From NCBI RefSeq assembly GCF_902459645.1, contig NZ_CABPSK010000001.1, forward strand, positions 806,001 to 870,000: a stretch of DNA of 64,000 nucleotides. The letters run 5' to 3'. Position numbers and translations under genes: made by a program. How positions within the stretch are numbered: the stretch's first letter is position 1; each line of letters begins with the position of its first letter. The stretch is from Pandoraea pneumonica (GTDB lineage: Bacteria; Pseudomonadota; Gammaproteobacteria; Burkholderiales; Burkholderiaceae). The notes under the pieces are model-generated. The model did no database searches, was not told the origin of the DNA, and saw only the letters and a program-made list of their open reading frames with translations. Below, one piece after another: positions 17,551 to 51,638 of this stretch.

Positions 17551-17595
17551 GTAGTCCACTCGGACGATGACATCCGCGTTTCCGGCAAGCACCTT
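17551..17595 (+). promoter_or_regulatory. Regulon operator 1 with -10 (SDR promoter)
   Basis: Operator 17551-17568: GTAGTCC-ACTC-GGACGAT. The -10-like hexamer CACCTT (17590-17595) starts 24 nt after GGAC. The SDR start codon is at 17632. Confidence 0.75.
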
Positions 17596-17631
17596 AGCGA
17601 CTTCGATTCAAGGGCGTTTGCGGAGCATACG

Positions 17632-18387
17632 ATGGGGCGACTGGCAGGCAAGGTGGCGCTGGTGACCGGCGCGAGTGGCGGCATTGGACGGGCGATATCG
17701 CATCGGCTCGCCAACGAAGGCGCCCAACTCGTACTCACCGATATTGCCCCGCATCCGCAAGACGAAAGGTGCGGAAGGGCCACCGAATCGGCGCTGTGTC
17801 TTCACCTTGACGTGTCCAGCGAGGCCAGTTGGAGCGATGTCGTCGACGCCTCGCTGAAGCACTTCGGCCACATCGACATTCTGGTGAACAATGCCGCCGT
17901 CATCGCCGCGGGCAACATCGAAGACACCTCGCTTTCCCAATGGCAGGCCGTGCAGCGCGTGAACGCCGACGGGGTTTTCCTTGGCTGCCACCATGCCGTG
18001 CGGGCAATGAAGAGGAATCTACGTGGCGGCGCTATCGTCAATCTCGCGTCGCTGGCGGCCGTCACCGGATTGGGCCGCTACTGCGCCTACAGCGCTTCCA
18101 AAGGGGCGGTGGCGGCATTGACCCGCTCCGTCGCCGCGCACTGCCGCGACGCCGGATACCCCATACGCTGCAACGCCATCGTTCCCGGCGCGGTACTCAC
18201 TCAAGCGATTGCCGCCACCACCGGCGGCATTTCTGCCGACATGGCCGACTACTGGCACGACCCCCGCACCCGTTATGCGATGCCCGAGGACATTGCCTCG
18301 TTAGTGGCGTTTCTCGCCTCGGACGATGCGCGATTCATCACCGGCTCGGAAGTGCGCATCGACAACGGCCAGTTGTTCGTTCAGTAA
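17632..18387 (+). CDS. SDR-family oxidoreductase
   Basis: A 251-residue NAD(P)-dependent alcohol/ketone oxidoreductase of the classical SDR type: cofactor motif TGASGGIG, structural NNAA at about residue 86, catalytic Ser in NLASLAAV and YSASK. Asp in VLTDIAP after beta-2 favours NAD(H). It follows operator 1 directly and is followed 26 bp later by an NTF2-like gene, a two-gene unit. It likely oxidises a ring hydroxyl in the clustered pathway; which one is unknown. The longer frame from 17515 has no ribosome site and would cross the operator. Confidence 0.85.
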   Translation: MGRLAGKVALVTGASGGIGRAISHRLANEGAQLVLTDIAPHPQDERCGRATESALCLHLDVSSEASWSDVVDASLKHFGHIDILVNNAAVIAAGNIEDTSLSQWQAVQRVNADGVFLGCHHAVRAMKRNLRGGAIVNLASLAAVTGLGRYCAYSASKGAVAALTRSVAAHCRDAGYPIRCNAIVPGAVLTQAIAATTGGISADMADYWHDPRTRYAMPEDIASLVAFLASDDARFITGSEVRIDNGQLFVQ

Positions 18388-18413
18388 GCCGTAGGCCACA
18401 GACACAAAGAAAA

Positions 18414-18923
18414 ATGGATGACATGGAATCGCAGCGCCGTTGGGCAGGGCTTGAGCAAACGGTCGCAACGCTCGCAGACGAACTGGCGATCTACCGGCTA
18501 ATCGCCTCGTACGGCCCGCTGGTGGACAGTGCGACAGATTCGGCCCGTTGCCGGGAGGCCGCCGAATTGTGGATGCAGGACGGCATATACGATCTCGGGC
18601 CGGGGGCCGTGGCGAAGGGCCATGCGGAGATCGCGGCGCTCTTCGAACATCCGATTCATCAGACGTTGATTCGCGAAGGCGGTGCGCACGTGATGGGGCT
18701 GCCCCAGATCCGGCTCGATGGCGATTGCGCCACCGCAGTCTCGTGCTCGCGCGTCTATCGGGCGGACGAGACTGGCTTTCACGTCTGGCGAGTAGCCGCC
18801 AATCGCTGGGAGCTTGTGCGCGCAACGGCAACGGGTGCCGCGACGCCGCAATGGCGTATTGCCCGCCGGATCAATCGGCTATTGCACAACAGCGCCGAGG
18901 CGCGTGAGTTGATGCGGCTATAA
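18414..18923 (+). CDS. NTF2/SnoaL-like protein
   Basis: A 169-residue protein with the SnoaL-like cone-fold pattern: an N-terminal helix ELAIYRLIASYGPLVDS, an acidic DGIYDLGPGAVAKGHAEI strand-turn segment, and later strands CATAVSCSRVYRAD and FHVWRVAANRWELVRA. Relatives isomerise or dehydrate small polycyclic ketones, which would suit a steroid- or terpene-like substrate, but no catalytic residue can be assigned. ATG 18414 is taken; ATG 18423 is possible. It is the second gene of the operator 1 unit. Confidence 0.7.
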   Translation: MDDMESQRRWAGLEQTVATLADELAIYRLIASYGPLVDSATDSARCREAAELWMQDGIYDLGPGAVAKGHAEIAALFEHPIHQTLIREGGAHVMGLPQIRLDGDCATAVSCSRVYRADETGFHVWRVAANRWELVRATATGAATPQWRIARRINRLLHNSAEARELMRL

Positions 18924-18966
18924 CGCGGAGGGGCAGGGAGCAAAGGTGGCGGGGCTGGTTGTCCTG

Positions 18967-19275
18967 TCAGGCTCCGCTGCCTCGATTGCTCAGCGGACTG
19001 CCATGCCGCACCGCGTCATCGAAGCAAGTTTGGTAGCCGAGTTTCCAGCCGTCCTGAGTTTCGGCACTCGCGTCCTTCGGCAGACGGCTCTCGACCATCG
19101 TCGGTTCCACTGCGCCGCGTCCGGCAGTGCAGCCGAGCGTGTAACCCGCGCGGAATGCCGCCGACGATCCAGCGGGCGGGCGGTCCGGCGAGGCCAGTGG
19201 GCTGCTGCAAGCGGCCAAGCACAGCGCCGTTGCCATTGCGGCGGTGTACAGCATGCTGCGGGTTGTGGACGCCAT
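18967..19275 (-). CDS. Small lipoprotein, divergent member of the proposed regulon
   Basis: A 102-residue protein with signal peptide II (MLYTAAMATALCLAAC, lipobox LAAC) and a Cys-containing tail (YTLGCTAG, YQTCFDD). ATG 19275 has AGGGAGA upstream, unlike 19293. It is the only - strand gene in the front part of the catabolic cluster. The palindromic operator 2 lies upstream with TAGACT at the right distance in this direction too, so it is probably co-regulated with the pathway. Family not recognised; a role in uptake across the periplasm is conceivable. Confidence 0.72.
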   Translation of the reverse strand: MASTTRSMLYTAAMATALCLAACSSPLASPDRPPAGSSAAFRAGYTLGCTAGRGAVEPTMVESRLPKDASAETQDGWKLGYQTCFDDAVRHGSPLSNRGSGA

Positions 19276-19317
19276 CTTGTGTCTCCCTGCCAATGAGCCC
19301 CCGATGGGCGTTGCGCC

Positions 19318-19389
19318 AGTCTACGGGCGGGCGAATGTGGGGTAATCGTCCAGTTGGACGATTACGCCCGATTTTCTTCCCGCTATGGT
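19318..19389. promoter_or_regulatory. Regulon operator 2, bidirectional, perfect palindrome
   Basis: TAATCGTCCA (19343-19352) and TGGACGATTA (19355-19364) are perfect inverted arms around GT. For the + strand SDR, TATGGT (19384-19389) starts 24 nt after GGAC. For the - strand lipoprotein, TAGACT (complement of 19318-19323) has the same spacing. This is the most symmetric copy in the window. Confidence 0.8.
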
Positions 19390-19437
19390 CGCCGGTGACT
19401 TACCGAATCTACCTTGACCGACGACAGGAGCAAGTTG

Positions 19438-20214
19438 ATGGAGACGCCCCCGAACTACCGCCCGCCGCTGGCGGACCAAATTGCCGTCGTAACCGGCGCG
19501 GCCAACGGCATCGGCCGTGCCACGGCGCTACGCTTTGCCCGCGATGGCGCCCATGTCGCGCTGCTCGACCGCGATGTCGCGGGGCTGGCCTCGCTGCGCG
19601 ATGAGATCGAAGCGCTTGACCGCCGCGCCTATGCGCTCGCGCTCGACTGCACGCACCAAGGCGACGTTCGCGACGCTTTCGCTGATATTGCGGCGACGCT
19701 CGGCCCAGTGGACGTGCTGCTCAACAACGTCGGTCAAGGGCCGCGCGAGCGGATGTCGAGCTTCGTCGACGCCAATATCGAGACGCTCGACTTCCTGCTC
19801 GACATCAATCTGAAAACGGTCATCGTGTGTTCGCATCAGGTGGTGGCGGGCATGTGCGAGCGGCGTCGCGGCAAGATCGTGAACATCACGACCGAGGCGG
19901 CGCTCAATGGTGCACTGCGGTGCTGGGACTACGCCGCCGCAAAGGCCGGGGTGATCGGTTTTACGCGCGCGTTGGCCCGGGAGGTTGCCCCTTATGGGGT
20001 GAACGTCAACGCGATCGGCCCCGGCGCGACCCGCACGCGAGCGCTGGAGCAAACGCCGAAAGACCAACTCGACAAGGTCATCGCAGGCATCCCGATGGCC
20101 CGCATCGGCGAACCGGACGACATCGCCAACGCCGTTGCCTTTTTCTCCAGCGCGCAAAGCAGCTACGTGACGGGCCAAACGTTGCTCGTCAATGGCGGAA
20201 ATTGGATGGTGTGA
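19438..20214 (+). CDS. SDR-family oxidoreductase
   Basis: A 258-residue SDR with cofactor motif TGAANGIG, NNVG (about residue 101), catalytic Ser/Thr region NITTEAALNG and YAAAK. An Asp after beta-2 (LLDRDV) favours NAD(H). ATG 19438 has CAGGAGCAAG just upstream; the TTG at 19414 is less likely. It stands alone between operators 2 and 3. It is likely a dehydrogenase for a hydroxy-acyl-CoA or cyclic alcohol intermediate. Confidence 0.85.
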   Translation: METPPNYRPPLADQIAVVTGAANGIGRATALRFARDGAHVALLDRDVAGLASLRDEIEALDRRAYALALDCTHQGDVRDAFADIAATLGPVDVLLNNVGQGPRERMSSFVDANIETLDFLLDINLKTVIVCSHQVVAGMCERRRGKIVNITTEAALNGALRCWDYAAAKAGVIGFTRALAREVAPYGVNVNAIGPGATRTRALEQTPKDQLDKVIAGIPMARIGEPDDIANAVAFFSSAQSSYVTGQTLLVNGGNWMV

Positions 20215-20239: not shown

Positions 20240-20284
20240 CTAGTCCGATTGAACGATGTCCCGGCGTCAGCGCGCTGCCAGTAT
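20240..20284 (+). promoter_or_regulatory. Regulon operator 3 with -10 (ABC binding-protein promoter)
   Basis: Operator 20240-20257: CTAGTCC-GATT-GAACGAT, with one change (GAAC for GGAC). The hexamer CAGTAT (20279-20284) starts 24 nt after GAAC. The start codon of the binding protein is at 20343. Confidence 0.7.
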
Positions 20285-20342: not shown

Positions 20343-21563
20343 ATGAGCAGAATCACGAGGAGCGCGATCCGTCATGCCGCCACAGGCATGCTGGCGCTTG
20401 CCGCCGCCATTGCAGCGGGCGGCGTCTGGGCGCAAGGCACCGAGCCGGTCCGGCTAGGGGCGATCTATTCGATTACCGGGGCCGGTGCGGCGACGGGCTA
20501 CGCGAGCCTTACCGGCACCAAGATGGCCGTCAAGGAGATCAACGCGGCGGGTGGCATCTTGGGGCGGCAGATCGAACTGTTCGTCGGCGACGACGCGTTC
20601 GATCCGACGCAAGCCGTCGCTGAAGTGAAGCGGCTCGTCTCCAAAGAGAAAGTCCAATTGTTGATGGGCCCGACGATCAGTCAGGTCACGCTGGCAATCG
20701 CTCCGGTGCTGACGCAGGCTCGCGTGGCCAGCGTGGCGCTCTCCGGGTCCACGTCGCTCACGCCGCAGGTCGCGCCGTACACCTTCAGCATGTGGACGTC
20801 GATCGAAGCGCAGGGCGAAGCGATGATCGACTTCGCAGTGAAGCAACTCAAGGTGAAGACCGCCGCGATCATTGCCGATAACGGCGCACAGGGCAAAGCA
20901 GGCACGGCCATCTTCCAGCGCATGCTTGCCGCACGCGGCGTCAAAGTCACCGGTGTTCAAGAGCACGAATCGCGCACGTCCGACGTGACCGCACAAGTGC
21001 TCGCGCTCAAGCGAGGCAATCCGGATATCGTTTTCCAAATCAGCACCACTGGCGAAGATTCGGGCGTGGTGTTCCGCACCATGCAGGATCTGGGCTGGAA
21101 CACCAAAGTGATGAGCATGGTTGCCGGTGTCAGCGCGCCGCTGGTCATTCGTGCGAGTACCCCCGACGTGTTCAAGCAAGGCGATATCTACGCGACGATG
21201 CTCAAGGCGTACACGTATTGCCCGAAAGATCCGGTCGGTCAGACGGAGTTCGGCAAGTTCGTGACGCGTCTCAAAGCGTTTGATCCGAAGAATGTCGACA
21301 AGCTCAATGCGCAGGTCGTGAGCATGACCTACGACGGTGTCTATGTGCTCAAGGCTGCGGTTGAAGCGACCAAGTCGTTCGATGGTGCGACGTTGACGTC
21401 GTGGATCGAGAAGAATGCGTCGTCGATTCGTGGCCGCGTGAACGGTTCGCTCTCGGCGACCCAGCTTAGCCACTTCCTCGTCGGAGCCGATGCCATCACG
21501 ATGGTCAAGCGCCCGGACATCAAGCGCGAAGACGGTTTGGTCGAACGGCTCGACTGCCATTGA
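20343..21563 (+). CDS. ABC importer periplasmic binding protein (branched-chain amino acid type)
   Basis: A 406-residue type I periplasmic binding protein of the LivJ/HmgC class (Peripla_BP_6). A signal peptide ends at GGVWAQG; the mature start EPVRLGAIYSITGAGAATG is typical. ATG 20343 follows CGGAGACACC. There is no permease gene beside it; the matching LivH, LivM-LivG and LivF genes lie at 46680-50112. Such proteins in catabolic clusters often bind organic acids rather than amino acids, so it probably captures the pathway substrate in the periplasm. It heads a unit with the NTF2-like and OYE genes. Confidence 0.9.
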   Translation: MSRITRSAIRHAATGMLALAAAIAAGGVWAQGTEPVRLGAIYSITGAGAATGYASLTGTKMAVKEINAAGGILGRQIELFVGDDAFDPTQAVAEVKRLVSKEKVQLLMGPTISQVTLAIAPVLTQARVASVALSGSTSLTPQVAPYTFSMWTSIEAQGEAMIDFAVKQLKVKTAAIIADNGAQGKAGTAIFQRMLAARGVKVTGVQEHESRTSDVTAQVLALKRGNPDIVFQISTTGEDSGVVFRTMQDLGWNTKVMSMVAGVSAPLVIRASTPDVFKQGDIYATMLKAYTYCPKDPVGQTEFGKFVTRLKAFDPKNVDKLNAQVVSMTYDGVYVLKAAVEATKSFDGATLTSWIEKNASSIRGRVNGSLSATQLSHFLVGADAITMVKRPDIKREDGLVERLDCH

Positions 21564-21663
21564 TTCGACGCCCCGCTAGATTGTCCTAATCAGTCAGCCC
21601 CGTGGCCCGCGCGAGCGGGCCATGGCGCATCTGCATCAATCTCTTCTGCTCAGGAGCCCTCCG

Positions 21664-22311
21664 ATGGAGATGGATCAACTGGCCCGGCGTATCGACCGGC
21701 TCGAATCGATTGAGGAAATTCGCATGCTCGCCGCCAAGTACTCGCTGGCGCTCGACATGCGTGACCTCGACGCATGGGTGAATCTGTTTGCACACGACGT
21801 CGCAGTCGGCGAAGGCAAGACCGGGCGTGCCGCGCTCAAACGCTGGATCGATCGCACGCTGCGCGAGCAATTCACGGTCACATCGCATCACATCGGCGGT
21901 CACATCATCGAGTTTCAGGACGCCGATCACGCGTGTGGCGTCGTGTACTCGAAGAACGAACACGAGACCGGGCCCGAGTGGGTCATCATGCAAATGCTCT
22001 ATTGGGACGACTACGAGCGCATCGACGGGCGGTGGGTCTTTCGACGCCGCTTGCCGTGCTACCTGTACGCGACCGATCTGAACAAGCCACCGATCGGCGA
22101 TCAGAAGATACGTTGGCCGGACCGCCCGCGCGAAGACGGGCACTGGCACGACCTTTGGCCGTCGTGGCAAAGCTTCTGGGCCGAGAAACCCGAGGGGCTG
22201 CCTTCGGTTGCCGCCCCCGCGCCTTTGAACCAGTTTCTCGCCACGATGCGACGTGGCAGCGCGCCGCCTAAGCTTCGCGTGAGTTTTGTCGAGGGGGCGA
22301 GCCGTGAATAA
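21664..22311 (+). CDS. SnoaL-like (NTF2-fold) protein
   Basis: A 215-residue protein. The N-terminal SnoaL-like domain is visible (IDRLESIEEIRMLAAKYSLALDMRDLDAW, then HHIGGHIIEF and WVFRRRLPCYL); the last 70 residues are Pro/Trp-rich and not recognised. ATG 21664 has CAGGAG 10 bases upstream. It overlaps the OYE gene by 8 bp. Relatives act as isomerases, dehydratases or hydroxylase subunits; the role here is open. It differs in sequence from the other NTF2-like protein at 18414. Confidence 0.75.
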   Translation: MEMDQLARRIDRLESIEEIRMLAAKYSLALDMRDLDAWVNLFAHDVAVGEGKTGRAALKRWIDRTLREQFTVTSHHIGGHIIEFQDADHACGVVYSKNEHETGPEWVIMQMLYWDDYERIDGRWVFRRRLPCYLYATDLNKPPIGDQKIRWPDRPREDGHWHDLWPSWQSFWAEKPEGLPSVAAPAPLNQFLATMRRGSAPPKLRVSFVEGASRE

Positions 22312-23389
22312 CTTGGCCATGTCGCCCGAGCGCAGCGATTTGTTCTCGCCAGTAAGTCTGGGCGAGATTTCCCTTTCCAACCGCATCGTCATGGCCCCCA
22401 TGACGCGCAGCCGGGCCGACGAGAATGACGCGCCGACCGACTTGCATGTCGACTACTATCGCCAGCGCGCCACGGCAGGATTGATCGTCACGGAGGGCAC
22501 GTATCCGTGTCTCAACGGCAAAGGATATTGCCGCACGCCGGGCATCGTGACGCCGCAACAACTGGCGGGATGGCGGCGCGTGACCGACGCCGTGCACGCG
22601 CAAGACGGACGCATCGTGATGCAGCTGATGCATGTGGGGCGCGCCGCGTCGCATCACAACAAGTCGGGTGCGCGCACCCTCGCGCCATCGGCAATCCGTG
22701 CCCAAGCGCAAATCTATACGGACGCGGCCGGATTGGTCGACACGGATACGCCGGAAGCCATGACGGCAGCCGAGATCGTCTCGACCATTGACGCGTATCG
22801 TCAGGCGGCCCTCAACGCGCGCGCAGCGGGCTTCGACGGCGTTGAGCTTCATGCCAGCAGCGGCTACCTGCCTATGCAGTTCTTGCTGGAATGCAGCAAT
22901 CGCCGCGATGACGGCTACGGGGGTGGGCTGCACGCCCGCGTGCGCTTCACGGTGGAGGTGCTTGAACACATGAGTCAAGCCATTGGCGCCGCACGCGTGG
23001 GGCTGCGTCTGTGCCCCGGCAATCCGTACAACGACATGCATGACCCGGCGCCCGAGGCGACCTACAGCGCGCTGCTCTCGGCGATCCGGGGGCTGGGACT
23101 GGCGTATGTCCACGTGAGCCGTTCGCCGCAACCGGCGCTCGACGCCTTCGCGCTGGTGCGCCGTCATTTTGACGGCCCGGTGATCGTGAACGATGGCTTC
23201 GACGGCAATTCGGCCCGCACGGCCATCGCCGACGGCATTGGACAAGCCGTGTCGTTTGGTCGCCATTTCATTGCGAACCCGGATCTGGTGGCACGTTTGC
23301 AGCGCGGCACCGCACTCGCTCGCTTTGATCGCCACACCCTCTACACGGCCGGGCCGCAAGGCTACTCCGATTACCCGAGTGCCAACTGA
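22304..23389 (+). CDS. Old yellow enzyme family ene-reductase
   Basis: A 361-residue FMN-dependent NAD(P)H:flavin oxidoreductase of the NemA/xenobiotic reductase class: start DLFSPVSLGEISLSNRIVMAPMTRSRA, FMN-binding QLMHVGRAA, and the C-terminal GRHFIANPDL. The substrate-binding pair, normally His-x-x-His/Asn, reads HASS, so the second residue is Ser. GTG 22304 is chosen because GAGGGGG lies upstream and it overlaps the previous stop; ATG 22319 is the alternative. In context it probably reduces an activated C=C bond of a cyclic enone. Confidence 0.85.
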   Translation: MNNLAMSPERSDLFSPVSLGEISLSNRIVMAPMTRSRADENDAPTDLHVDYYRQRATAGLIVTEGTYPCLNGKGYCRTPGIVTPQQLAGWRRVTDAVHAQDGRIVMQLMHVGRAASHHNKSGARTLAPSAIRAQAQIYTDAAGLVDTDTPEAMTAAEIVSTIDAYRQAALNARAAGFDGVELHASSGYLPMQFLLECSNRRDDGYGGGLHARVRFTVEVLEHMSQAIGAARVGLRLCPGNPYNDMHDPAPEATYSALLSAIRGLGLAYVHVSRSPQPALDAFALVRRHFDGPVIVNDGFDGNSARTAIADGIGQAVSFGRHFIANPDLVARLQRGTALARFDRHTLYTAGPQGYSDYPSAN

Positions 23390-23411: not shown

Positions 23412-23456
23412 ATAGTCCTGATGGACGATGCGGCGTGCGGGCGTGAAATCGAGAAT
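23412..23456 (+). promoter_or_regulatory. Regulon operator 4 with -10 (thiolase operon)
   Basis: Operator 23412-23429: ATAGTCC-TGAT-GGACGAT. The hexamer GAGAAT (23451-23456) starts 24 nt after GGAC. It drives the six-gene unit starting at 23523. Confidence 0.78.
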
Positions 23457-23522: not shown

Positions 23523-24677
23523 ATGGCAGACGCATACCTCATCGACGCGCTTCGCACGCCCACGGGCAAGCGCGCAGGCCGGCTGGCAGCCGTACACCCG
23601 GCCGATCTCGGCGCACACGTCCTGCGCTCGCTGGTCGAACGCAACGCCATCCCCGCAGACGACTACGACGACGTGATTTTCGGCGGCGTCGATGCGGTCG
23701 GGCCCAACGCTGGTGTCATCGGTCGCACGGCGTGGCTCGCGGCTGGACTGCCGATGCATGTGCCGGGCACGGTCATCGACCGCGCTTGCGGGTCGTCTCA
23801 GCAGGCACTTCACTTCGCGGCGCAAGCCGTGATGAGCGGCACACAGGACGTCGTGATCGCCGGTGGCGTGCAGAACATGAGCATGGTGCCCATTGCCTAC
23901 GCGATGACGGCCGGGCAGCCGCTGGGCTTTTCCGATCCCTTCTCGGGGAGCCACGGCTGGCGTGAGCGCTTTGGCGATCAGCCGGTGAATCAGTTCTACG
24001 CGGCGCAACGCATCGCCGACCACTGGCAGTTGTCGCGCGCCGACATGGAAGCGTTCGCTCTGGAAAGCCATCGCCGGGCGCGCCATGCGATTGCGCAAGG
24101 GCATTTCAACCGCGAGGTGGTCCCGCTGGCGGGCCTCGAAATGGATGAAACCACCCGCGAGACCACGCTGGCGAAGATGGCCGGGCTGGAACCCGTGATG
24201 CCGGAATACCCGTCCATTACGGCGGCTGTGTCGAGCCAGACGTGCGATGCCGCCGCCGCGCTGCTGATCGCGTCCGAGGCGGCGGTAAAACGCTACGGCC
24301 TCAAGCCGCGCGCCCGCATTCACCACATGAGCGTGCTCGCGGACGACCCGATCTGGCACTTGCGCGCACCGATCCCGGCGACCGAGGCGGCGTTGAAGAA
24401 AGCGGGCATGACGCTCGCAGACATCGATCTCGTCGAAATCAACGAAGCCTTCGCGTCGGTCGTGATGGCGTGGCTGAAAGAGACGGGCTATCCGCACGCG
24501 CAGACCAACGTGAATGGCGGCGCCATCGCGTTGGGGCATCCGCTGGGCGCCTCGGGCGCAAAGCTCATGACCACGTTGCTGCATGAACTGGAGCGCACCG
24601 GTGGCCGTTACGGGCTTCAGACGATGTGCGAGGGTGGCGGACAAGCCAACGTCACGATCATCGAACGCCTGAATTGA
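23523..24677 (+). CDS. fadA6: Acyl-CoA thiolase, FadA6-like
   Basis: A 384-residue thiolase. The nucleophilic Cys is in DRACGSSQQA (about residue 90), the His in NGGAIALGHPLGASG (about 341) and the second Cys in TMCEGGGQANVTIIE (about 371). The start DAYLIDALRTPTGKRAGRLAAVHPADLG and the SSQQA form after the Cys closely resemble mycobacterial FadA6, the last thiolase of steroid C/D-ring breakdown, by my recollection. It heads the operon under operator 4, followed by SDR, FadE pair, IpdF-like and MaoC-like genes. The reaction is likely cleavage of a short beta-keto-acyl-CoA to acetyl-CoA or propionyl-CoA. Confidence 0.88.
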   Translation: MADAYLIDALRTPTGKRAGRLAAVHPADLGAHVLRSLVERNAIPADDYDDVIFGGVDAVGPNAGVIGRTAWLAAGLPMHVPGTVIDRACGSSQQALHFAAQAVMSGTQDVVIAGGVQNMSMVPIAYAMTAGQPLGFSDPFSGSHGWRERFGDQPVNQFYAAQRIADHWQLSRADMEAFALESHRRARHAIAQGHFNREVVPLAGLEMDETTRETTLAKMAGLEPVMPEYPSITAAVSSQTCDAAAALLIASEAAVKRYGLKPRARIHHMSVLADDPIWHLRAPIPATEAALKKAGMTLADIDLVEINEAFASVVMAWLKETGYPHAQTNVNGGAIALGHPLGASGAKLMTTLLHELERTGGRYGLQTMCEGGGQANVTIIERLN

Positions 24678-30716: not shown

Positions 30717-31499
30717 TCAATCCTTATTGACGTTGGCCGCATCGAGAAACGCGGGCCGCTCGCCGCCACCATGCACCAGCAGATCGGTCCCGCTGACGTA
30801 GGCCGCTTGCGGCGAGCTCACGAAGACGCACGCATTGCCGATATCGGCCGGTGTCGCCATTCGTTGCAAGGCGATGGTCTTGGCGACGGCGGCAATGCCC
30901 GCTTCGTCGCCGTAATGCTGGATCGACTGCTCCGTGTTCACGTAACCGGGGCTGACCGACACCACGCGCACGTGCGGCGCCCATTCGACCGCCAGCGACT
31001 GCGTAAGACTGAGAATGCCAGCCTTGGCGGCCCCATAGGCGGCCGTGCCCGGCTGCGGACGGCTTGCGCCAATGCTGCCGATAAAGACGATAACGCCCCC
31101 TTCGGCCTGCTTTTGCATGATGTCGTTGGCCTGCTGCGCCATCTGCAAGGGGGCCAGCAAGTTCAGACGAATAATCGATTCGTGGAACTTCGGCGACGCT
31201 TGCGCGGCTTTGACGAACGGCGTGCCACCGGCATTGTTGACGAGCACGTCGAGCCGCCCGTGGGCTTGCATGATTTGCGCGAAGAGGGCGATCACGGCCT
31301 CCGGGTCGCGGACATCGCACGCATGAAAGACCGCACTACGGCCCTCAGCTTCCGGCAGCGGCGTCTCGGGGAGATTGCGGCCGCAAACCAGCACGGTGGC
31401 ACCCGCAGCGAGGTAGCACTCGGCAATGCCGCGCCCGACGCCCTTGGCGCCGCCGGTCACAAGCACGACCTTACCGGCAAACGACTGATTCGAACTCAT
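30717..31499 (-). CDS. SDR-family oxidoreductase
   Basis: A 260-residue SDR: VTGGAKGVGRGIAE, NNAGG (about residue 90), SIGASRP and the catalytic YGAAK (about 152). ATG 31499 has TTGGAG nine bases upstream and is preferred over the TTG at 31514. It is the last gene of a - strand unit with the other SDR and the hydratase-dehydrogenase, though a 79-bp gap with a possible half-operator precedes it. Probable hydroxyacyl-CoA or cyclic alcohol dehydrogenase. Confidence 0.85.
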   Translation of the reverse strand: MSSNQSFAGKVVLVTGGAKGVGRGIAECYLAAGATVLVCGRNLPETPLPEAEGRSAVFHACDVRDPEAVIALFAQIMQAHGRLDVLVNNAGGTPFVKAAQASPKFHESIIRLNLLAPLQMAQQANDIMQKQAEGGVIVFIGSIGASRPQPGTAAYGAAKAGILSLTQSLAVEWAPHVRVVSVSPGYVNTEQSIQHYGDEAGIAAVAKTIALQRMATPADIGNACVFVSSPQAAYVSGTDLLVHGGGERPAFLDAANVNKD

Positions 31500-31531
31500 T
31501 CTGTGAAGCTCCAAACAAAAGTGAATGTTGA

Positions 31532-31565
31532 AGATTGTTGTCGCGGTATGTGCTGCCTATCGTCC
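31532..31565 (-). promoter_or_regulatory. Possible half-operator and -10 for the last SDR
   Basis: On the - strand GGACGAT (complement of 31559-31565) matches the promoter-proximal half of the regulon operator, and CAATCT (complement of 31532-31537) starts 24 nt after GGAC. The distal half does not match. It may be a weak internal promoter. Confidence 0.3.
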
Positions 31566-31578
31566 CGATAATTCCCGC

Positions 31579-32361
31579 CTACAGCCCATACCCGCCAGCG
31601 ACTGCGATCTGTTGCCCCGTCACGAACGCCGCCTTCGACGAGGCGAGAAACACGACCGAGTGGGCAATTTCTTCCGGACGGCCCAGTCGCTTGAGCGCCT
31701 GATTCCGGTAAGTTGCCTCGATCCATGCGTCGTCGAACACCCCCTGACGGCGCAATTCCAAAAACATGCCAGCCTCGATGACCCCGACCAGCACGCTGTT
31801 GGCCCGGATACCGTAGCGACCTTCTTCTCGAGCTACGCCGCGCACCATCGCTTCGATGGCCGCTTTGGGCACGATCGACAGCGCGTCGCGATTCGCCCAT
31901 CGCACGTCGCCCGCCGACCCGAGATGCACGTAGCTGCCGCCGCCTGCCGCTTTCATCAGCGGCAGCGAGGCCTGTAGCACGTTATAGAAGCCCGTGACTT
32001 CTTCGTCCAGCGCACGCTGCCATTGCGCACGATCGATCTGCGACAGGTAAACCTGCTCGGTCACGGCGGCGGCAGCAAAAACAATCGTGTGAATGCGGCC
32101 AGCCTGTGAGGCGACGGCGTCGATCACCGAGCGCACCTGCGCGTCGTCGTGTGTCGACATCGCGTGGATGCTCGCCGTGCGTCCCATGTCGCGAATGTCT
32201 TGCGCCACAACGGCGGCGCGCGATTCGTTTCGATGATAGGTCAATGCCACGTCGCTGCCTGCGCGCGCGAGTTCGCGGCAAATCGTACTCCCGATGCCGC
32301 CGCTACCGCCGATGACAAGGGCGGTGCCCGACGGGAAAAGCGGTTCGTGCGATTCGTTCAT
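31579..32361 (-). CDS. SDR-family protein with altered active site
   Basis: A 260-residue SDR-fold protein. The cofactor loop GGSGGIGSTICRELARAG is intact, and KRLGRPEEIAHSVVFLAS and the end VTGQQIAVAGGYGL are normal. The catalytic YxxxK reads SIVPK (about residue 161), so the Tyr is Ser, and NNAG is replaced by AAAAV. A classical dehydrogenase mechanism is therefore doubtful; it may be an ene-reductase-like or regulatory SDR. It begins 6 bp after the hydratase-dehydrogenase stop. Confidence 0.8.
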   Translation of the reverse strand: MNESHEPLFPSGTALVIGGSGGIGSTICRELARAGSDVALTYHRNESRAAVVAQDIRDMGRTASIHAMSTHDDAQVRSVIDAVASQAGRIHTIVFAAAAVTEQVYLSQIDRAQWQRALDEEVTGFYNVLQASLPLMKAAGGGSYVHLGSAGDVRWANRDALSIVPKAAIEAMVRGVAREEGRYGIRANSVLVGVIEAGMFLELRRQGVFDDAWIEATYRNQALKRLGRPEEIAHSVVFLASSKAAFVTGQQIAVAGGYGL

Positions 32362-32367
32362 AGCATC

Positions 32368-33990
32368 TCATCCTTGTTTAAGGGTATCGGCGTGATACAT
32401 GGGGCCACCGAGGTGCGCCGGAAACCCGAGGCCGTAGACCGCAGCGACATCGATGTCGGAGGCGCGCACGGCAGTACCTTCGTCGAGCAAGCGTTTCCCC
32501 TCGTTGACGATGGCCAGCAGGCAACGCGACTGGATGTCTTCGTCGCTCACCTCGCGATAGGGGCTACTTGCTCGCGCTGAAATTTCCGCGTTCGTGGCTG
32601 CCGCCAGCATTCGAGTCGCGATGGAGCCATCGCCCGCGCGACTGACGATGGGCGCTTTGCCTAGTCGTTTAGCAAACTGCATGAGAGTGGCGACGACGGC
32701 CTTGTCAGTCGCCGAAGTGCGAATCACTTCAACGAGTCGTCTCCCCTTTGCGGGAGTGACGACGTGCAGGCCCGCAACGTTGGCCGGGCGCGCCGTGGCG
32801 TCCGCCAGTCGTTCAATATTCAACGATGACGTGCCGCTCACCAGCATGGCACCGGGTTTGCATATCGCGTCAAAGCGTCGGAACAGCGCCTGAGTCTGCT
32901 CAAGCTCGTCCTCGATCGATTCGATCACCAGGTCGCAATCGTGCAAGGCCGTGATGGCGTCGTTCCGTCCCAGCAGGATGACCGGCACACCGGCCTTGAT
33001 GATGGCGGCGGCAGTGGCGTTGGCAGTCGTTCCCTCGCCGACAATGCCCACGCTAGCGATCTGACGGACTGGCCAACTGGCGGGGTCGCTGGGCAGACCG
33101 TCGATTTTCATCGCCTGCCGCTCGGCAGCAAAGATATGTCGCAAGGCGCGCGACTGCGCCGAGTTCATCAGCGTCATGCACAGCGCGTACTCCGCGCGCA
33201 GCCCGTCGGCGAGCGGCATCTCGCAGGCAAAGCGCACCGCGCGGATGCAAGCGAGCGGGGCTTCGACGCCGGGCCGTTCACGTCGAACATCGGCCTCAGC
33301 CTTTTCAAAGACCTCGGGGTCGGTGCATGCCACAGGCGCGTCGTTTTGCAACTTCGGTGGCGTACCCCGCGCGACCACTTGCTCGGCAAATCGCACCGCG
33401 TCGTCGATTAAATGCCCCTCCACGACGGCGTCCACCGCGCCAAGTTCGAACGCGCGATTCGCGTCGATGGGTTCCCCGGTGACGATCATGCGAAGCGCAG
33501 CAGGCACGCCAATCAGGCGAGGCAAGCGTTGCGTGCCCCCCGAGCCGGGGAGGATGCCGAGCTTGACTTCGGGAAGGCCGATGCGCGTTGTCACGGCAGC
33601 CACACGAAACTGGCAGGCCATCGCTAATTCGAAGCCGCCCCCGAGCGCCGTGCCGTGAAGCGCCGCGACCACGGGCTTGGGGCTGGCGGCGATGGACTCG
33701 ATCACATCGCCCGCCAGTGGCGGAAGCATCGGCCGACCGAACTCGCGGATATCGGCACCGGCGATGAACGTGCGGCCACCGCAGGCAATCACCATCACAT
33801 CGACGTGGCTGTCGGCAAGCGCCGCTTGTAACGCCGCCATCAATCCCGCGCGCACACCGTGCGAGAACGCGTTCACGGGGGGATGCGCCACGTGAAAAAC
33901 GGCAACACGTCCTCGCTTCTCCGTAGTGACTGGTGCCAGTGCCGTTGCCGGGGCAAGCGTGCGTCCTTGTCTCTGATTGCCGTCGCTCAT
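32368..33990 (-). CDS. Enoyl-CoA hydratase fused to a shortened 3-hydroxyacyl-CoA dehydrogenase
   Basis: A 540-residue FadB/FadJ-like protein; typical members have about 700. The hydratase half is complete: GGGFELAMACQF and IGLPEVKLGILPGSGGTQRL hold both catalytic Glu. The dehydrogenase half (from about residue 315, IVGEGTTANATAAAI) is cut down: the Rossmann part lacks the helical insert, and of the two C-terminal 3HCDH repeats only the last (VRASDIDVAAVYGLGFPAHLGGPM) remains. The His of HVVTPA is kept. ATG 33990 has AGGAAGG upstream. The hydratase is likely active; dehydrogenase activity is uncertain. Confidence 0.85.
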   Translation of the reverse strand: MSDGNQRQGRTLAPATALAPVTTEKRGRVAVFHVAHPPVNAFSHGVRAGLMAALQAALADSHVDVMVIACGGRTFIAGADIREFGRPMLPPLAGDVIESIAASPKPVVAALHGTALGGGFELAMACQFRVAAVTTRIGLPEVKLGILPGSGGTQRLPRLIGVPAALRMIVTGEPIDANRAFELGAVDAVVEGHLIDDAVRFAEQVVARGTPPKLQNDAPVACTDPEVFEKAEADVRRERPGVEAPLACIRAVRFACEMPLADGLRAEYALCMTLMNSAQSRALRHIFAAERQAMKIDGLPSDPASWPVRQIASVGIVGEGTTANATAAAIIKAGVPVILLGRNDAITALHDCDLVIESIEDELEQTQALFRRFDAICKPGAMLVSGTSSLNIERLADATARPANVAGLHVVTPAKGRRLVEVIRTSATDKAVVATLMQFAKRLGKAPIVSRAGDGSIATRMLAAATNAEISARASSPYREVSDEDIQSRCLLAIVNEGKRLLDEGTAVRASDIDVAAVYGLGFPAHLGGPMYHADTLKQG

Positions 33991-34069: not shown

Positions 34070-34114
34070 AGGTAGCGCGTACCTGCGGGCCGGGCATCCT
34101 ACGTTTGGACTATC
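34070..34114 (-). promoter_or_regulatory. Regulon operator 5b, degenerate, - strand, for the hydratase-SDR operon
   Basis: On the - strand: TAGTCC-AAAC-GTAGGAT (complement of 34097-34113), with two changes in the right half. The -10-like TACCTT (complement of 34070-34075) starts 24 nt after the GTAG core, as at the + strand sites. The gene start is at 33990. Confidence 0.55.
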
Positions 34115-34150: not shown

Positions 34151-34195
34151 CTAGTCCCAATGGACGATGCTTCGGCAATTCGTCGCCACCAGAAT
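34151..34195 (+). promoter_or_regulatory. Regulon operator 5 with -10 (ipdAB operon)
   Basis: Operator 34151-34168: CTAGTCC-CAAT-GGACGAT. The hexamer CAGAAT (34190-34195) starts 24 nt after GGAC. It drives the four-gene unit starting at 34268. Confidence 0.78.
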
Positions 34196-38420: not shown

Positions 38421-38465
38421 TTAGTCCCATTGGACGATGTGCGGGCTTGTGCCGGTCATGAAAAT
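38421..38465 (+). promoter_or_regulatory. Regulon operator 6 with -10 (hydratase-ipdC operon)
   Basis: Operator 38421-38438: TTAGTCC-CATT-GGACGAT. The hexamer GAAAAT (38460-38465) starts 24 nt after GGAC. It drives the six-gene unit from 38525 to 44849. The rest of the 38305-38524 gap shows no gene. Confidence 0.8.
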
Positions 38466-38524: not shown

Positions 38525-39478
38525 ATGGAAACGCAAGACCAGGAGGTGGTGTTGTACGAGGCCGCGCATGGGGTGGCCACCGTGACGATGAACCGGCCCG
38601 AGTATCACAACGCGCAGAACTCGCAGATGACGTATGCGCTGGACGCCGCGTTTCGTCGTGCGGCCGATGACGATTCGGTGCAAGTCATCGTCCTGCGCGG
38701 GGCGGGCAAGCATTTCTCGGCTGGGCACGATATCGGCACGCCGGGGCGCGATGTCGACAAAAGTTTCGCCCGCGCGTCGCTGTGGTACGACCACGTCAAC
38801 AAGCCGGGTGGTGAATTCTTGTATGCCCGCGAGCAAGAGGTCTACCTGGGCATGTGCCGCCGCTGGCGCGAAATTCCCAAGCCGACCATCGCGATGGTGC
38901 ACGGGGCATGCATCGCGGGCGGCCTGATGCTCGCTTGGGTGTGCGATCTGATTGTCGCCTCTGACGATGCCTTCTTCGCCGACCCGGTCGTGCGCATGGG
39001 CATCCCCGGCGTCGAATACTTCGCGCACGCCTACGAATTGAACCCGCGCATCGCGAAGGAGTTTTTGTTCCTTGGCGAGCGGATGAATGCGCAACGGGCC
39101 TACGAGATGGGCATGCTCAACCGCGTGGTGCCGCGCGCCGATCTCGAAGACGCGACCTATGAGATGGCCAAGCGCATCGCCAAGATGCCGCGCATGGGCC
39201 TCGTGCTCACGAAGCAGGCCATCAATCATGTGGAAGATCTGCAAGGCAAACGCAGCGCAATGGACGCCGCCTTCGCATGGCATCACTTTGCTCACGCCCA
39301 CAACGAACTCATCACGGGCAACCGGCTTGGCGGCTTTGATGCCCGTTCGATGGCGGCGTCGCAACGTGCGGGCGAGGGCGCTGCCGACGGGGTTGGCGAC
39401 CGGGTTGCCGACGGGGCTGTCGACCGGGTTGCCGACGTCTCGCAGGCAAAGGCCGCTGAAGCCGAGGGGCGCGCATGA
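38525..39478 (+). CDS. Enoyl-CoA hydratase/isomerase family protein
   Basis: A 317-residue crotonase: TMNRPEYHNAQNSQMTYALD, the oxyanion segments GKHFSAGHDIGTPG and HGACIAGGLMLAWVCDLIVASDD, and ADPVVRMGIPGVEYFAHA. An insert between the two oxyanion loops and a C-terminal HHFAHAHN region match the longer mycobacterial-type enoyl-CoA hydratases rather than EchA20. ATG 38525 is the start that follows the operator. The last 30 residues come from a 12-bp DNA repeat and are probably disordered. It overlaps ipdC by 4 bp. Confidence 0.83.
   Translation: METQDQEVVLYEAAHGVATVTMNRPEYHNAQNSQMTYALDAAFRRAADDDSVQVIVLRGAGKHFSAGHDIGTPGRDVDKSFARASLWYDHVNKPGGEFLYAREQEVYLGMCRRWREIPKPTIAMVHGACIAGGLMLAWVCDLIVASDDAFFADPVVRMGIPGVEYFAHAYELNPRIAKEFLFLGERMNAQRAYEMGMLNRVVPRADLEDATYEMAKRIAKMPRMGLVLTKQAINHVEDLQGKRSAMDAAFAWHHFAHAHNELITGNRLGGFDARSMAASQRAGEGAADGVGDRVADGAVDRVADVSQAKAAEAEGRA
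39386..39433 (+). repeat. Four 12-bp tandem units in a hydratase C-terminus
   Basis: Units alternate GACGGGGTTGGC / GACCGGGTTGCC / GACGGGGCTGTC / GACCGGGTTGCC. They are in frame and encode a DGVG-DRVA-DGAV-DRVA tail. Repeat number could vary among strains without changing the frame. Confidence 0.8.
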
Positions 39479-44993: not shown

Positions 44994-45038
44994 TTAGTCT
45001 CATTGGACGATGTGGCTCGAATACCGGCTCCATAGACT
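44994..45038 (+). promoter_or_regulatory. Regulon operator 7 with -10 (porin promoter)
   Basis: Operator 44994-45011: TTAGTCT-CATT-GGACGAT. The hexamer TAGACT (45033-45038) starts 24 nt after GGAC. It is followed by an unusually long leader, about 115 nt, to the porin start at 45161. Confidence 0.75.
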
Positions 45039-45160: not shown

Positions 45161-46573
45161 ATGAAGGCTCAGGCAAAAGTGTTGGGCGTGGTGCTCGGAA
45201 TGGCGGCAGTGGCTTCGCCGGTCGCGCACGCAGATCAGTTGTCCGACTTGCAAGCGCAAGTGCAGGAACTGATGCGAAAGATCGACACGCTCCAGAACAA
45301 TCAAAAGCAAATCGAAGCCAAACAAGCCGCCGTGGACGCTGCGGCACAAGCCGCTCCTAAAGCGGCACCGGCGGGCGCCGCCGGGCAGGGCGGTGCCGCA
45401 CCCACGGTGGTGGCGAGCACCAACCCGATGGCCTCGCAGCCGGGCTGGTTCATGATTCCCAACACCGATACCGCGATCAAGTTCGGCGGCTACGCGCAGT
45501 TGCAGATCATGGACGACCTCAAGGGCAATCTCGGCAACAGCCAGACGGTGATTCTGCCGTACACCGCAGGGTTTGGTGGTGTGCCGTACGACAATACGCC
45601 GCAAGCCAAACGCGGTGGACAGGTGCAGTTCGAAGCGCGTGAGTCGCGCCTCAATATTCAGACGAGCACACCGACGATGTACGGCCCGCTCACGACGTTG
45701 ATCGAAGGTGACTTCTACGGCGCGGGCGGTTCGAAATTCACCACCAACTCGGTGTCGCTGCGCCTGCGTCATGCGATGGGAACGATCGGCCCGTGGATGT
45801 TCGGGCAGTACTGGTCGAACTTCGGCGACCTCGGCCAAGGACCTGAAGTATTCGACTTCGGAGGCCCGGTGGGTCTGCCTGCCGTCAATCGTCAGCCGCA
45901 GATTCGCTATACGAAGTTGATCACGGACAATCTGCAAGCCTCCGTCTCGATCGAAGAGCCGGTACAGGACTTCACGGGTGCCGATTCCGTTGCGTTCATT
46001 GCTGGCGGCAACAACATCAGCACCAACTCCATCGACCAAACGCCTGAACTCACTGCACGCGTCACGTACTTCGATACGTGGGGACGCCAATCAGTCGGGG
46101 TGGTCGGGCGCAAGCTGATGGCGAACGACGGCGTGGCGCTGAGTTCAGCGGCGTACGGCTACGCGGTGAACTATCAAGGCACGTTCAACCTTCCGGGCCG
46201 CGACAAGATTTACTACGACGTGGTGTGGGAGAACGGCGGCGGACGCTATCTGACGCAAACGCCGACGTCGGCATTCCTCATCAACAACAACCTGTACAAA
46301 GTCTCGGGACTGGGCCTGAACCTGACCTATCAGCACTGGTGGGCACAGAACTGGCGCTCCAACATCAGCATTGGCCGCGACAAGATTTATAACCCTGCCG
46401 GTGTGCCCGCCACGTCGCTCGCAGAGACGCAATCGATGCACGCCAACCTGATCTGGTCGCCGATCAAGAGCACGTTGTTCGGTCTGGAATTTATCTACGC
46501 CCGAATCAAGAGTGAATCGGGCATCAAGGGCAGCGGCAGCCGCATCATGTTCGTCTCGCAGATGGGTTTCTAA
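45161..46573 (+). CDS. DcaP-like trimeric outer-membrane porin
   Basis: A 470-residue protein: signal peptide (VLGVVLGMAAVASPVAHA), a coiled coil DLQAQVQELMRKIDTLQNN (about residues 28-60), an Ala-rich linker, then a barrel beginning TAIKFGGYAQLQIMDD and ending MFVSQMGF with the terminal Phe. This layout is that of DcaP-family porins, which pass negatively charged organic acids. CAGGAGACG stands before ATG 45161. It is the single gene between operator 7 and a terminator, so uptake of the pathway substrate across the outer membrane is its likely job. Confidence 0.87.
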   Translation: MKAQAKVLGVVLGMAAVASPVAHADQLSDLQAQVQELMRKIDTLQNNQKQIEAKQAAVDAAAQAAPKAAPAGAAGQGGAAPTVVASTNPMASQPGWFMIPNTDTAIKFGGYAQLQIMDDLKGNLGNSQTVILPYTAGFGGVPYDNTPQAKRGGQVQFEARESRLNIQTSTPTMYGPLTTLIEGDFYGAGGSKFTTNSVSLRLRHAMGTIGPWMFGQYWSNFGDLGQGPEVFDFGGPVGLPAVNRQPQIRYTKLITDNLQASVSIEEPVQDFTGADSVAFIAGGNNISTNSIDQTPELTARVTYFDTWGRQSVGVVGRKLMANDGVALSSAAYGYAVNYQGTFNLPGRDKIYYDVVWENGGGRYLTQTPTSAFLINNNLYKVSGLGLNLTYQHWWAQNWRSNISIGRDKIYNPAGVPATSLAETQSMHANLIWSPIKSTLFGLEFIYARIKSESGIKGSGSRIMFVSQMGF

Positions 46574-50112: not shown

Positions 50113-50118
50113 ACGTCC

Positions 50119-50192
50119 TATAATGGCCTTCGCGAGGGTGCGCGGCCGGTGCCATCCGGCCCAGCCGTCCCGACCTCGCAGGAGGTCAAAAA
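50119..50192 (+). promoter_or_regulatory. Promoter and leader of a small lipoprotein gene
   Basis: TATAAT at 50119-50124 is a consensus -10 element; the -35 is weak. A small hairpin GGCCGG/CCGGCC (50144-50161) lies in the leader, and a near-ideal ribosome site AGGAGGT precedes the start at 50193. Confidence 0.55.
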
Positions 50193-50414
50193 ATGTTTGG
50201 AAAATCACTTCCCCAAGTACGCCGCTTGCCTTTGTGCGCGGCGTTTCTCGTCGTATCGCTGACCGGTTGTGCCGGTCTTCAGACTAGCGATACCGCATCG
50301 TCTGCCAATGCGAGCGTTACCGCCGTCGCGCAAGCCCCCTCGGCGCGTACGCTTCAGGTGGCTGCCATTCTCGGGCAGCAACGCGATCTGGAACTCAAAC
50401 GACTATCGCCCTGA
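50193..50414 (+). CDS. Small lipoprotein
   Basis: A 73-residue protein with a lipoprotein signal peptide (LCAAFLVVSLTGC, lipobox LTGC) and a short polar tail (about 48 residues, Ala/Ser/Thr-rich). It has its own TATAAT promoter and a strong ribosome site, unlike the regulon genes, so it may be an unrelated housekeeping gene. No family recognised. Confidence 0.7.
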   Translation: MFGKSLPQVRRLPLCAAFLVVSLTGCAGLQTSDTASSANASVTAVAQAPSARTLQVAAILGQQRDLELKRLSP

Positions 50415-50421
50415 GCAGGGC
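50408..50421. terminator. Short hairpin between convergent genes
   Basis: GCCCT-GAGC-AGGGC overlaps the stop codon of the small lipoprotein gene and lies before the end of the convergent hydrolase gene. The stem is short and has no T run, so function is uncertain. Confidence 0.3.
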
Positions 50422-50444
50422 TAGTTAGCGGGGCGTGGATAGCG

Positions 50445-51521
50445 CTATATCGCGGCCGAGCACGTCTGTGCGACGGCTGCCGATGCGCCATCCGCCTTCC
50501 GAACGTACTGCACGACACCTTGAGCGCTGCACTGGCGTTCGACCCATCCCCGGTAGAACAGATATTGGAGATGTGACGCCGCTTCGCCCAGTGCCAGCAC
50601 CAAATCGTCTCCTTCGAGCTTGCGCGCGAAGAGGATTGGCATGGCGTCGACGGCGGTCAGTGGCGTGTCGCAGGCGCTGAGCAGCCGCAAATTCCGTTCG
50701 TCCAGCTTTTCGCGCAGCACCTGACGCCGCTCCGGCAGCCCACGGAACGCTTCGCCGTGCGCGGGCAGCACAAGTGTGTCTGCGGGCAGATCGGCGAGCA
50801 TGTCGAGCGCGTCGAGGTAGTCCTGAATCGGATTGGCGTCGGGTGCGTGCATCGTGACGCTGAGATTCGGCGAGATGGCGGGCAGCACCATGTCGCCCGA
50901 GATCAGCACGTCTAACGCAGCGCAATACAGCAGCGCGTGGTCAGGCGAGTGGCCGCGTCCGACCAGCACGTTCCACTGGTGCGCACCGATCTGAAGCGTT
51001 TGCCCGTGATGCAGCGCCCGCGTGCGTTCGGGCAGCGCGCAGCGATGCGCACGAAACGACGCGCACCGCTCGACTAAGTGGGCAAGCAACTGGCCGGTGG
51101 CGCCATTGGCGCGGTAGAACGTCTGCGCAAGACGATCCGCATCGGCCTCGTGCATCACGTGGGGGCGTTGAGCGTCTTCAAGCTCGCCCGGTGTGATGTC
51201 GACCGGGATGTCGAAGCGCTGGGCAAGCCACGCCGCTTGTCCCAAATGATCGGGATGGCAATGGGTCACGACGATGCGTGTGATCGGGCGTCCCAAAGAT
51301 CCATCCGCAAGCAAGCGCTGCCAAACCTCACGCGTCTCCGGCGTGCCCATGCCCGTATCGACCAGCGCCCAACCTGCACCGTCCTCGATGAGCCACACGT
51401 TGACATGATCGAGTGCGAACGGCAGCGGCAGGCGCAGCCAGCAAATGCCGGGCACGACGGTGACGGGCTGCGAGACGGGTGGCGCGGGCAGGCAGCGCAG
51501 TCGGGGATCGGGTAACGGCAT
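50445..51521 (-). CDS. Metallo-beta-lactamase-fold hydrolase
   Basis: A 358-residue MBL-fold enzyme. The metal motif THCHPDHLG (about residue 87), a further His in GRGHSPDHALLY (about 191), GDMVLP and VLPAHGEAF give the two-metal site. Its length and C-terminal helical part (AASHLQYLFYRGWVERQ) resemble LACTB2/hydrolase groups that cleave thioesters or lactones. It is divergent from the SDR at 51669 and shares the palindromic operator 8, with a -10-like TACGTT in its direction. A thioesterase or lactonase step in the pathway is likely. Confidence 0.83.
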   Translation of the reverse strand: MPLPDPRLRCLPAPPVSQPVTVVPGICWLRLPLPFALDHVNVWLIEDGAGWALVDTGMGTPETREVWQRLLADGSLGRPITRIVVTHCHPDHLGQAAWLAQRFDIPVDITPGELEDAQRPHVMHEADADRLAQTFYRANGATGQLLAHLVERCASFRAHRCALPERTRALHHGQTLQIGAHQWNVLVGRGHSPDHALLYCAALDVLISGDMVLPAISPNLSVTMHAPDANPIQDYLDALDMLADLPADTLVLPAHGEAFRGLPERRQVLREKLDERNLRLLSACDTPLTAVDAMPILFARKLEGDDLVLALGEAASHLQYLFYRGWVERQCSAQGVVQYVRKADGASAAVAQTCSAAI

Positions 51522-51566
51522 TGAGCTTGGCGGCCTTTGGCGACGGAACGGGAATAGTCAGGTGCC

Positions 51567-51638
51567 AACGTACCGTGCCGGGCCTGCCGGGGCATCGTCC
51601 GCTTGGACGATGCTTTGCATCGCGGTGCCTCGCATTCT
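51567..51638. promoter_or_regulatory. Regulon operator 8, bidirectional, perfect palindrome
   Basis: GCATCGTCC (51592-51600) and GGACGATGC (51605-51613) are perfect arms around GCTT. For the + strand SDR, CATTCT (51633-51638) starts 24 nt after GGAC. For the - strand MBL hydrolase, TACGTT (complement of 51567-51572) has the same spacing. Confidence 0.78.

Follow-up and report, generated by a model that had tools for sequence, protein, structure and literature searches.

A probable operator of TesR/TeiR-type LuxR activators of steroid degradation, set at a fixed distance from -10-like hexamers

Introduction

What controls a large catabolic gene cluster in which the same short inverted repeat returns in front of one gene unit after another? 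The question is raised by a stretch of Pandoraea pneumonica DNA (positions 806001-870000 of contig C1, in a 5,845,078-base genome of 12 contigs), the whole 64,000 nucleotides of which we refer to as the window, and which on its plus strand holds eight such repeats, starting at 17551, 19345, 20240, 23412, 34151, 38421, 44994 and 51594. A sequence-only reading had proposed them as a new 18-bp operator with fixed promoter geometry, defining a regulon of the cluster and read by a LuxR-type protein encoded at 29475-30641. Following up on this proposal by comparative analysis, we conclude, with a probability of roughly 0.82, that the repeats represent the operator of a TesR/TeiR-type LuxR activator of steroid (bile-acid) degradation, which would act in class II fashion from -42.5. 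The switch appears to turn on steroid and bile-acid ring breakdown genes of soil bacteria, the control system of which is poorly understood so far.

Operator and promoter geometry

All eight sites lie where they had been placed, whereas the pattern given for them, xTAGTCC or ATCGTCC followed by four variable bases and GGACGAT, is obeyed by six: 20240 carries GAACGAT in place of GGACGAT, and 44994 TTAGTCT in place of TTAGTCC. Every copy precedes a plus-strand gene. Four of them, at 17551, 20240, 34151 and 51594, meet the longest open reading frame (ORF) at its 5' end; in our reading, they fall between genes only when translation is taken to start at the downstream ATG, which suits the protein. 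A coding-like score was obtained for one of the eight, 23412, which sits past the stop codon of the preceding gene.

The hexamers beginning 24 nucleotides (nt) after GGAC are as previously listed, with A at the second and T at the sixth position in every case; counted from the operator start, this xAxxxT hexamer stands at offset 39 in 8/8 sites. Between -60 and +119, the A at +40 and the T at +44 are the sole columns outside the operator that are invariant in all eight, and two or more invariant columns (of 162) turned up in 12 of 20,000 random eight-segment sets drawn from the window. Directly downstream, G occupies +18 in seven of eight sites, and ATG fills +16 to +18 in 7/8 as well.

In relatives, TAGTCCN4GGACGA sites were collected blind to the hexamer, window-like sites were removed, and the remainder was reduced to a non-redundant set (<60% identity over the 62 nt downstream). 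The xAxxxT hexamer occurs at exactly offset 39 in 43 of these 72 sites, whereas 125 other offsets average 2.2 sites each and never exceed 7; at offset 40 it occurs in 16; a smaller set of relative sites yielded 29 of 44 at offset 39. Not one of the 43 was coding-like, compared with 78% of 2,000 random window positions. At the Pseudomonas loci, the hexamers at this offset are CATAGT, CACAGT, TAACCT and AATAAT.

The two arms of the repeat are not equivalent. The G at +18 is present in 42 of the 43 relative sites while the mirror position, -1, is unconserved, as are +19 to +21, and the promoter-side arm is consequently GGACGATG. GGACGATG is present in 54 non-redundant sites of the TAGTCC type; in 36 of them the hexamer lies on its side and in 5 on the GGACTA side. 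With the -10 at +39 and a spacer of 17 nt, the -35 hexamer would fall at +16 to +21 and read ATGnnn, so that the arm overlaps the -35. The proposal that the operator is centred near -42.5 gains comparative support, with the start sites themselves predicted, and by sequence the repeats have the makings of a class II operator-promoter, centred near -41.5/-42.5, fixed to the -10 and overlapping a weak -35.

Genome-wide scans, run with the reversed pattern as control, place GTCCN4GGACGAT at six positions, every one within the window (control 0). Allowing up to one mismatch, TAGTCCN4GGACGAT recovers the eight window sites and five elsewhere (control 2 rows); three of these five lie in long ORFs, and xAxxxT stands at offset 39 in two of those three and in none of the others. 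At up to three mismatches the scan barely separates motif from control, with at least 1,542 rows versus at least 1,414. A motif frequent at random genome sites, which would have spoken against the operator, is accordingly not what the genome scan found. The notion of a regulon of this cluster is supported, the operator being confined to the cluster in this genome. It is not private to it, however, and recurs near LuxR homologues in Cupriavidus, Paraburkholderia, Burkholderia, Comamonas, Pandoraea and Pseudomonas.

The regulator

The proposed reader of the operator is a protein of 388 amino acids, encoded on the plus strand at 29475-30641 and assigned to the TesR/TeiR group through the synteny of its homologues. 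It possesses a C-terminal LuxR-type helix-turn-helix (HTH), the positions of which are mostly invariant across 22 aligned homologues and which is also seen in the structure model. The model is of middling confidence (predicted local distance difference test, pLDDT, 77.4; predicted template modelling score, pTM, 0.49), and its Foldseek matches comprise GAF/PAS proteins and also VqmA, CviR, SdiA and RhlR, hinting at an N-terminal GAF/PAS-like sensor part. Neither an autoinducer-binding domain nor a receiver domain gave a Pfam match at E<=0.001, and on these grounds, respectively, identities as an acyl-homoserine-lactone-type LuxR and as a NarL-type response regulator were rejected.

Regulator and motif travel together. 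In a family survey of 398 genomes, with LuxR homologues accepted at E<=1e-40, the TAGTCC motif occurs in 78 and the homologue in 82; 50 genomes have both, 28 the motif only, 32 the LuxR gene only and 288 neither (Fisher p=3.5e-22). Within the genus of the window, motif (TAGTCC sites) and homologue are found in the identical 4 of 32 genomes. The TCGTCC form of the left arm is present in 29 of the 32 LuxR-only genomes, and the wider pattern TMGTCCN4GGACGATG in 79 of 82 LuxR genomes versus 66 of 316 others; because of these 66, single matches mean little. We further inspected the best 80 of 550 LuxR-centred loci, from Cupriavidus, Paraburkholderia, Burkholderia, Pseudomonas, Pandoraea and others, where 1.59 Mb around the 80 LuxR genes contain 94 TMGTCCN4GGACGATG sites (reversed control 0), with at least one in 50 of the loci. 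The suggestion that this LuxR protein is the likely reader is hence backed by genome co-occurrence and comparative evidence, binding being predicted.

Many genomes (G285, G631, G784, G837 and others) harbor three to five homologues of the regulator. Some homologues are without such an operator nearby, and paralogues may therefore recognise different boxes. At L103, L106, L114, L115, L123-L127, L129 and L132 we observed back-to-back operator pairs whose ends are GGACGAA or GGACGAG, often with the hexamer at offset 40; these loci belong to Cupriavidus and Burkholderiaceae and encode LuxR paralogues that share about 40-43% identity with the window protein, and the pairs are possibly a paralogue-specific variant of the box. 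A separate case is L130 (JASHPB010000098.1), from a bin labeled 'Candidatus Binataceae', whose LuxR homologue is 53% identical to the window protein and ranks among Cupriavidus loci; it has a TAGTCC site and lacks the hexamer at 39, and reflects either mis-binning or transfer.

Function of the cluster

The gene pair at 34268-35987 matches PDB entries 6con and 6co6 (E 2.8e-84 and 5.8e-58), which we take to be IpdAB, and 36658-38304 encodes a FadD3-family ligase above the NCBIfam cut-off. These genes recur in similar order in operator-bearing relatives. Two further genes appear there: one KstD-like (L081:12223; its 566 bits stay under the 789-bit cut-off curated for the 3-ketosteroid dehydrogenase models of NCBIfam), the other for a TesB-like extradiol dioxygenase and preceded by an operator (L082:715). 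KstD gave no match at E<=1e-20 in the window genome (G000) and did so in six of six relatives chosen for regulator and motif (G487, G519, G631, G563, G676 and G765). The best TesB match of the window genome is 37% identical and located on a different contig, compared with 55-100% in the same six. Judged by its predicted products, the catabolic cluster serves the C/D-ring portion of steroid breakdown, and this assignment connects the regulator with the TesR/TeiR group; neither a KstD nor a TesB orthologue is detectable in the genome. With the IpdA/IpdB-like pair, the FadD3-family ligase and the conserved gene order, the regulator gene itself resides within a steroid-degradation cluster. The substrate is likely a partly degraded bile acid or steroid, and considering the full C/D-ring set, the missing KstD match and the distant TesB match, the strain may degrade second-half steroid intermediates only.

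The link to TesR is made through Comamonas. Seven Comamonas genomes share the gene order SDR-SDR-SnoaL-OYE-TesB-IpdA-IpdB-...-thiolase-LuxR (SDR, short-chain dehydrogenase/reductase; OYE, old yellow enzyme), and each has three operators: one upstream of the leading SDR gene, a second upstream of TesB, and a third upstream of the stretch that the LuxR gene closes. The hexamer is at offset 39 in 21 of these 21 sites, which were chosen by a score that favours it; an operator-only scan of the Comamonas stretches returned 12 non-redundant sites, 10 of them at offset 39, with a mean of 0.49 and a maximum of 3 at others. An eighth genome, G807, has neither the enzyme cluster nor a site in a stretch of 40 kb. 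In the genus that holds L198 ('Comamonas sp.'), LuxR homologues are found in 18 of 53 genomes, and the locus in G834 is identical in sequence to that of G093.

Excerpts of PMC13101464 describe the same gene layout as in the seven Comamonas genomes for the C. testosteroni TA441 steA-tesR cluster, and place steABCD, for 12-hydroxyl removal, at the four genes that open it; the window's own SDR, SDR, SnoaL and OYE genes are similar to these four. As the layout is the published one, the Comamonas homologue, 37-39% identical to the window regulator, can be assigned as TesR by synteny. The window gene shares with TesR/TeiR of C. testosteroni that it encodes a LuxR-type protein within a steroid cluster, and its homologues end a steA-tesR type cluster in the seven Comamonas genomes, where the operator geometry is the same. 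It differs in position: the seven homologues are the last gene of a tesB-to-tesR cluster, whereas the window gene follows a MaoC gene and precedes divergent SDR genes, is not behind the last thiolase, and has no TesB in its cluster.

Mechanism and alternatives

Computation establishes the sites, their spacing, direction and conservation, the co-occurrence with the regulator and the synteny with the Comamonas steA-tesR layout. On this basis we propose that a dimer of the protein of 29475-30641, once it senses a steroid-derived ligand, would bind the TMGTCC-N4-GGACGATG inverted repeat centred at -42.5 and activate, in class II manner, the RNA polymerase carrying sigma-70; the ligand, the binding and activation over repression are the inferred elements. 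The promoter-side arm GGACGATG would overlap the -35 (ATGnnn, with a 17-nt spacer to the -10), and this would account for the constancy of that arm. The regulon would cover uptake (binding protein, porin and ATP-binding cassette, ABC, transporter) and enzymes of the C/D-ring and 12-hydroxyl-removal type, and probably also the electron-transfer flavoprotein and the regulator itself. Autoregulation is suggested by the LuxR gene being downstream of 23412 in the window and behind an internal operator in Comamonas; at L088, the LuxR gene is behind SDR and binding-protein genes plus an operator.

Several observations weigh against this interpretation. The HTH scores 21.3 bits with Pfam GerE, under the cut-off of 23.5. 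In 29 of the 72 relative sites the hexamer is not at exactly 39, these misses including one-base shifts and sites from regulator-less genomes, and 21 of 21 Comamonas sites, from related genomes, depart from the core by one mismatch, either TAGTCT or a right arm with GTGAC. Genomes that have the motif but no LuxR gene number 28 for TAGTCC and 66 for the wider pattern; one of the latter, G572, belongs to the genus of the window. Conversely, no TMGTCCN4GGACGATG site is found in 30 of the 80 LuxR-centred loci, no good site lies close to the homologues at L198/G784, L210, L211 and L263, and the exact motif is absent (0) from the G784 genome despite the presence of the protein. Finally, reviews, in the passages covered, portray TeiR as a polar membrane-located kinase acting through a cascade.

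The mismatches between motif and regulator (28 of 78 motif genomes without the LuxR gene, and some LuxR genes without a nearby exact site) would also be expected if the operator were real and another cluster-associated regulator read it, with the LuxR protein controlling something else. We regard this as unlikely: concordance of TAGTCC sites and LuxR gene is exact within the genus, the association spans Burkholderiaceae, Comamonas and Pseudomonas, an inverted repeat at -42.5 fits a LuxR-type dimer, and the Comamonas LuxR gene closes the very cluster that bears the operators. Less probable still is that the LuxR protein binds and represses by covering the -35 until a ligand releases it. The overlap of operator and -35 position would permit such an arrangement, and passages of PMC6678751 and PMC8700777 report a LuxR-type repressor of a steroid dehydrogenase gene in C. 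testosteroni; however, the spacing from -10 to operator is base-exact at most sites, beyond the need of a repressor, the promoters retain only ATG of the -35 and look weak without an activator, and in the literature passages covered TeiR/TesR figures as a positive regulator. Chance, base composition or a dispersed repeat that regulates nothing can practically be dismissed as the origin of the sites, for although palindromic GTCC...GGAC words do occur in GC-rich coding DNA and isolated matches in regulator-less genomes, chance is ruled out by the spacing test, fixed amid unrelated flanks in several genera, by the confinement of the exact core to one cluster and by the invariant-column draws, and a dispersed repeat by the fixed geometry and non-coding position of the sites.

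Building on the activator interpretation, a wider and more tentative picture, which as a whole we hold to be possible rather than probable, is that of one ancient 'steroid box' across Beta- and Gammaproteobacteria, read directly by TesR/TeiR-type class II activators with no kinase cascade. Its arms would be unequal, GGACGATG doubling as -35 and GGACTA being the silent side, so that arm sequence alone would set direction and a double GGACGAT arm would yield two promoters. The window strain, having kept the regulon without the A/B-ring genes, would then be a specialised scavenger feeding on half-degraded bile acids that other bacteria release.

Relation to known systems

Quorum-sensing LuxR systems resemble the present one in the LuxR-type HTH and an inverted repeat near -42.5, where the lux box lies. 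They differ from it in that the lux box has another sequence than the window repeat, and in the autoinducer-binding domain, for which the window regulator has no match. Another inverted repeat before genes activated by the LuxR family in many species is the ACTU motif of CrbR, a response regulator of acetate use in Pseudomonas fluorescens, according to passages of PMC5715377; its sequence is different (e.g. TACTACCATCGTCGAAT), CrbR is part of a two-component system, and the GGACGAT in that paper lies in a primer. In actinobacteria, the KstR2 regulon governs the same block, the degradation of methylhexahydroindanedione propionate (HIP), that is of the C/D rings; KstR2 is, in contrast, a TetR-type repressor, and excerpts of PMC8399759 state that homologues are absent from bile-acid-degrading Proteobacteria.

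A LuxR-type class II operator is as such a known kind of element. In the freely licensed literature, a scope outside which the 2004 TeiR paper falls, we found no description of this operator or of its link to a steroid regulator, in agreement with the earlier remark that none of this sequence was known, and the literature passages covered describe no operator for TeiR. Sequence and steroid-regulator link hence appear new. With a conserved, base-exact and direction-giving operator, one can directly test whether TesR/TeiR acts as a DNA-binding activator or through a kinase cascade; regulons become readable in genome sequences, and building blocks for steroid biosensors become available. The findings also bear on a claim, relayed in a passage of PMC6895838, that tesR-like genes occur only in C. 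testosteroni strains.

Operators and genes in the window

A position matrix built from relatives alone (49 operators and 43 hexamers, window sites excluded) ranks the eight sites top in the window, followed by the reverse sides of the two perfect palindromes and then by weaker minus-strand sites at 34113 (20.3) and 54432 (20.1), which have the same geometry as the main eight; the best of 25 Markov control windows reached 14.9.

Operator 1 (17551..17568, + strand; GTAGTCC ACTC GGACGAT), with the putative -10 CACCTT at 17590-17595, precedes an SDR gene at 17632-18387. Operator 2 (19345..19362) is a perfect palindrome that may serve both strands, with TATGGT at 19384-19389 before an SDR gene (19414 or 19438 to 20214) and, leftward on the minus strand, TAGACT at 19318-19323 before the ORF 18967-19275. 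A Pfam search of small ORFs left of 19345 gave no match; the ORF 18967-19275 (minus strand, 102 amino acids), behind the leftward promoter of this palindrome, has a lipoprotein-like signal and is absent from the gene-caller set. The second perfect palindrome is operator 8 (51594..51611, both strands), with CATTCT at 51633-51638 before an SDR gene at 51669-52538 and leftward (minus strand) TACGTT at 51567-51572 before a metallo-beta-lactamase-fold gene at 50445-51521. Both are thus flanked by -10-like hexamers on each side, and each may drive two promoters. A rule that perfect palindromes are bidirectional was rejected, with two-sided hexamers in 2/2 in the window but in 0/4 perfect palindromes of relatives.

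Operator 3 (20240..20257, +; the GAACGAT variant), with CAGTAT at 20279-20284, lies upstream of a periplasmic binding protein gene (20343-21563), SnoaL (21622-22311) and OYE (22286-23389). Downstream of operator 4 (23412..23429, +; GAGAAT at 23451-23456) follow a thiolase gene (23523-24677), an SDR, two acyl-CoA dehydrogenases, MaoC (to 29328) and possibly the LuxR gene, the extent of this operon being inferred. Operator 5 (34151..34168, +), with CAGAAT at 34190-34195, precedes the IpdA/IpdB-like genes (34268-35155, and to 35987), a gamma-carbonic-anhydrase-like gene and the FadD3-family ligase, and operator 6 (38421..38438, +; GAAAAT at 38460-38465) an enoyl-CoA hydratase (38525-39478), a FabK/IpdC-like gene, a hydratase, two acyl-CoA dehydrogenases and a thiolase (to 44849). 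Operator 7 (44994..45011, +; the TTAGTCT variant), with TAGACT at 45033-45038, lies before a DcaP-like porin gene (45161-46573) and branched-chain-type ABC transporter genes to 50112. Of the two weaker candidates on the minus strand, ATAGTCCAAACGTAGGATG (34095..34113), with TACCTT at 34069-34074, precedes genes 33990..30717, and CTAGTCTGAATGCAGGATG (54414..54432), with AAAAAT at 54388-54393, the electron-transfer flavoprotein genes at 54312..52591.

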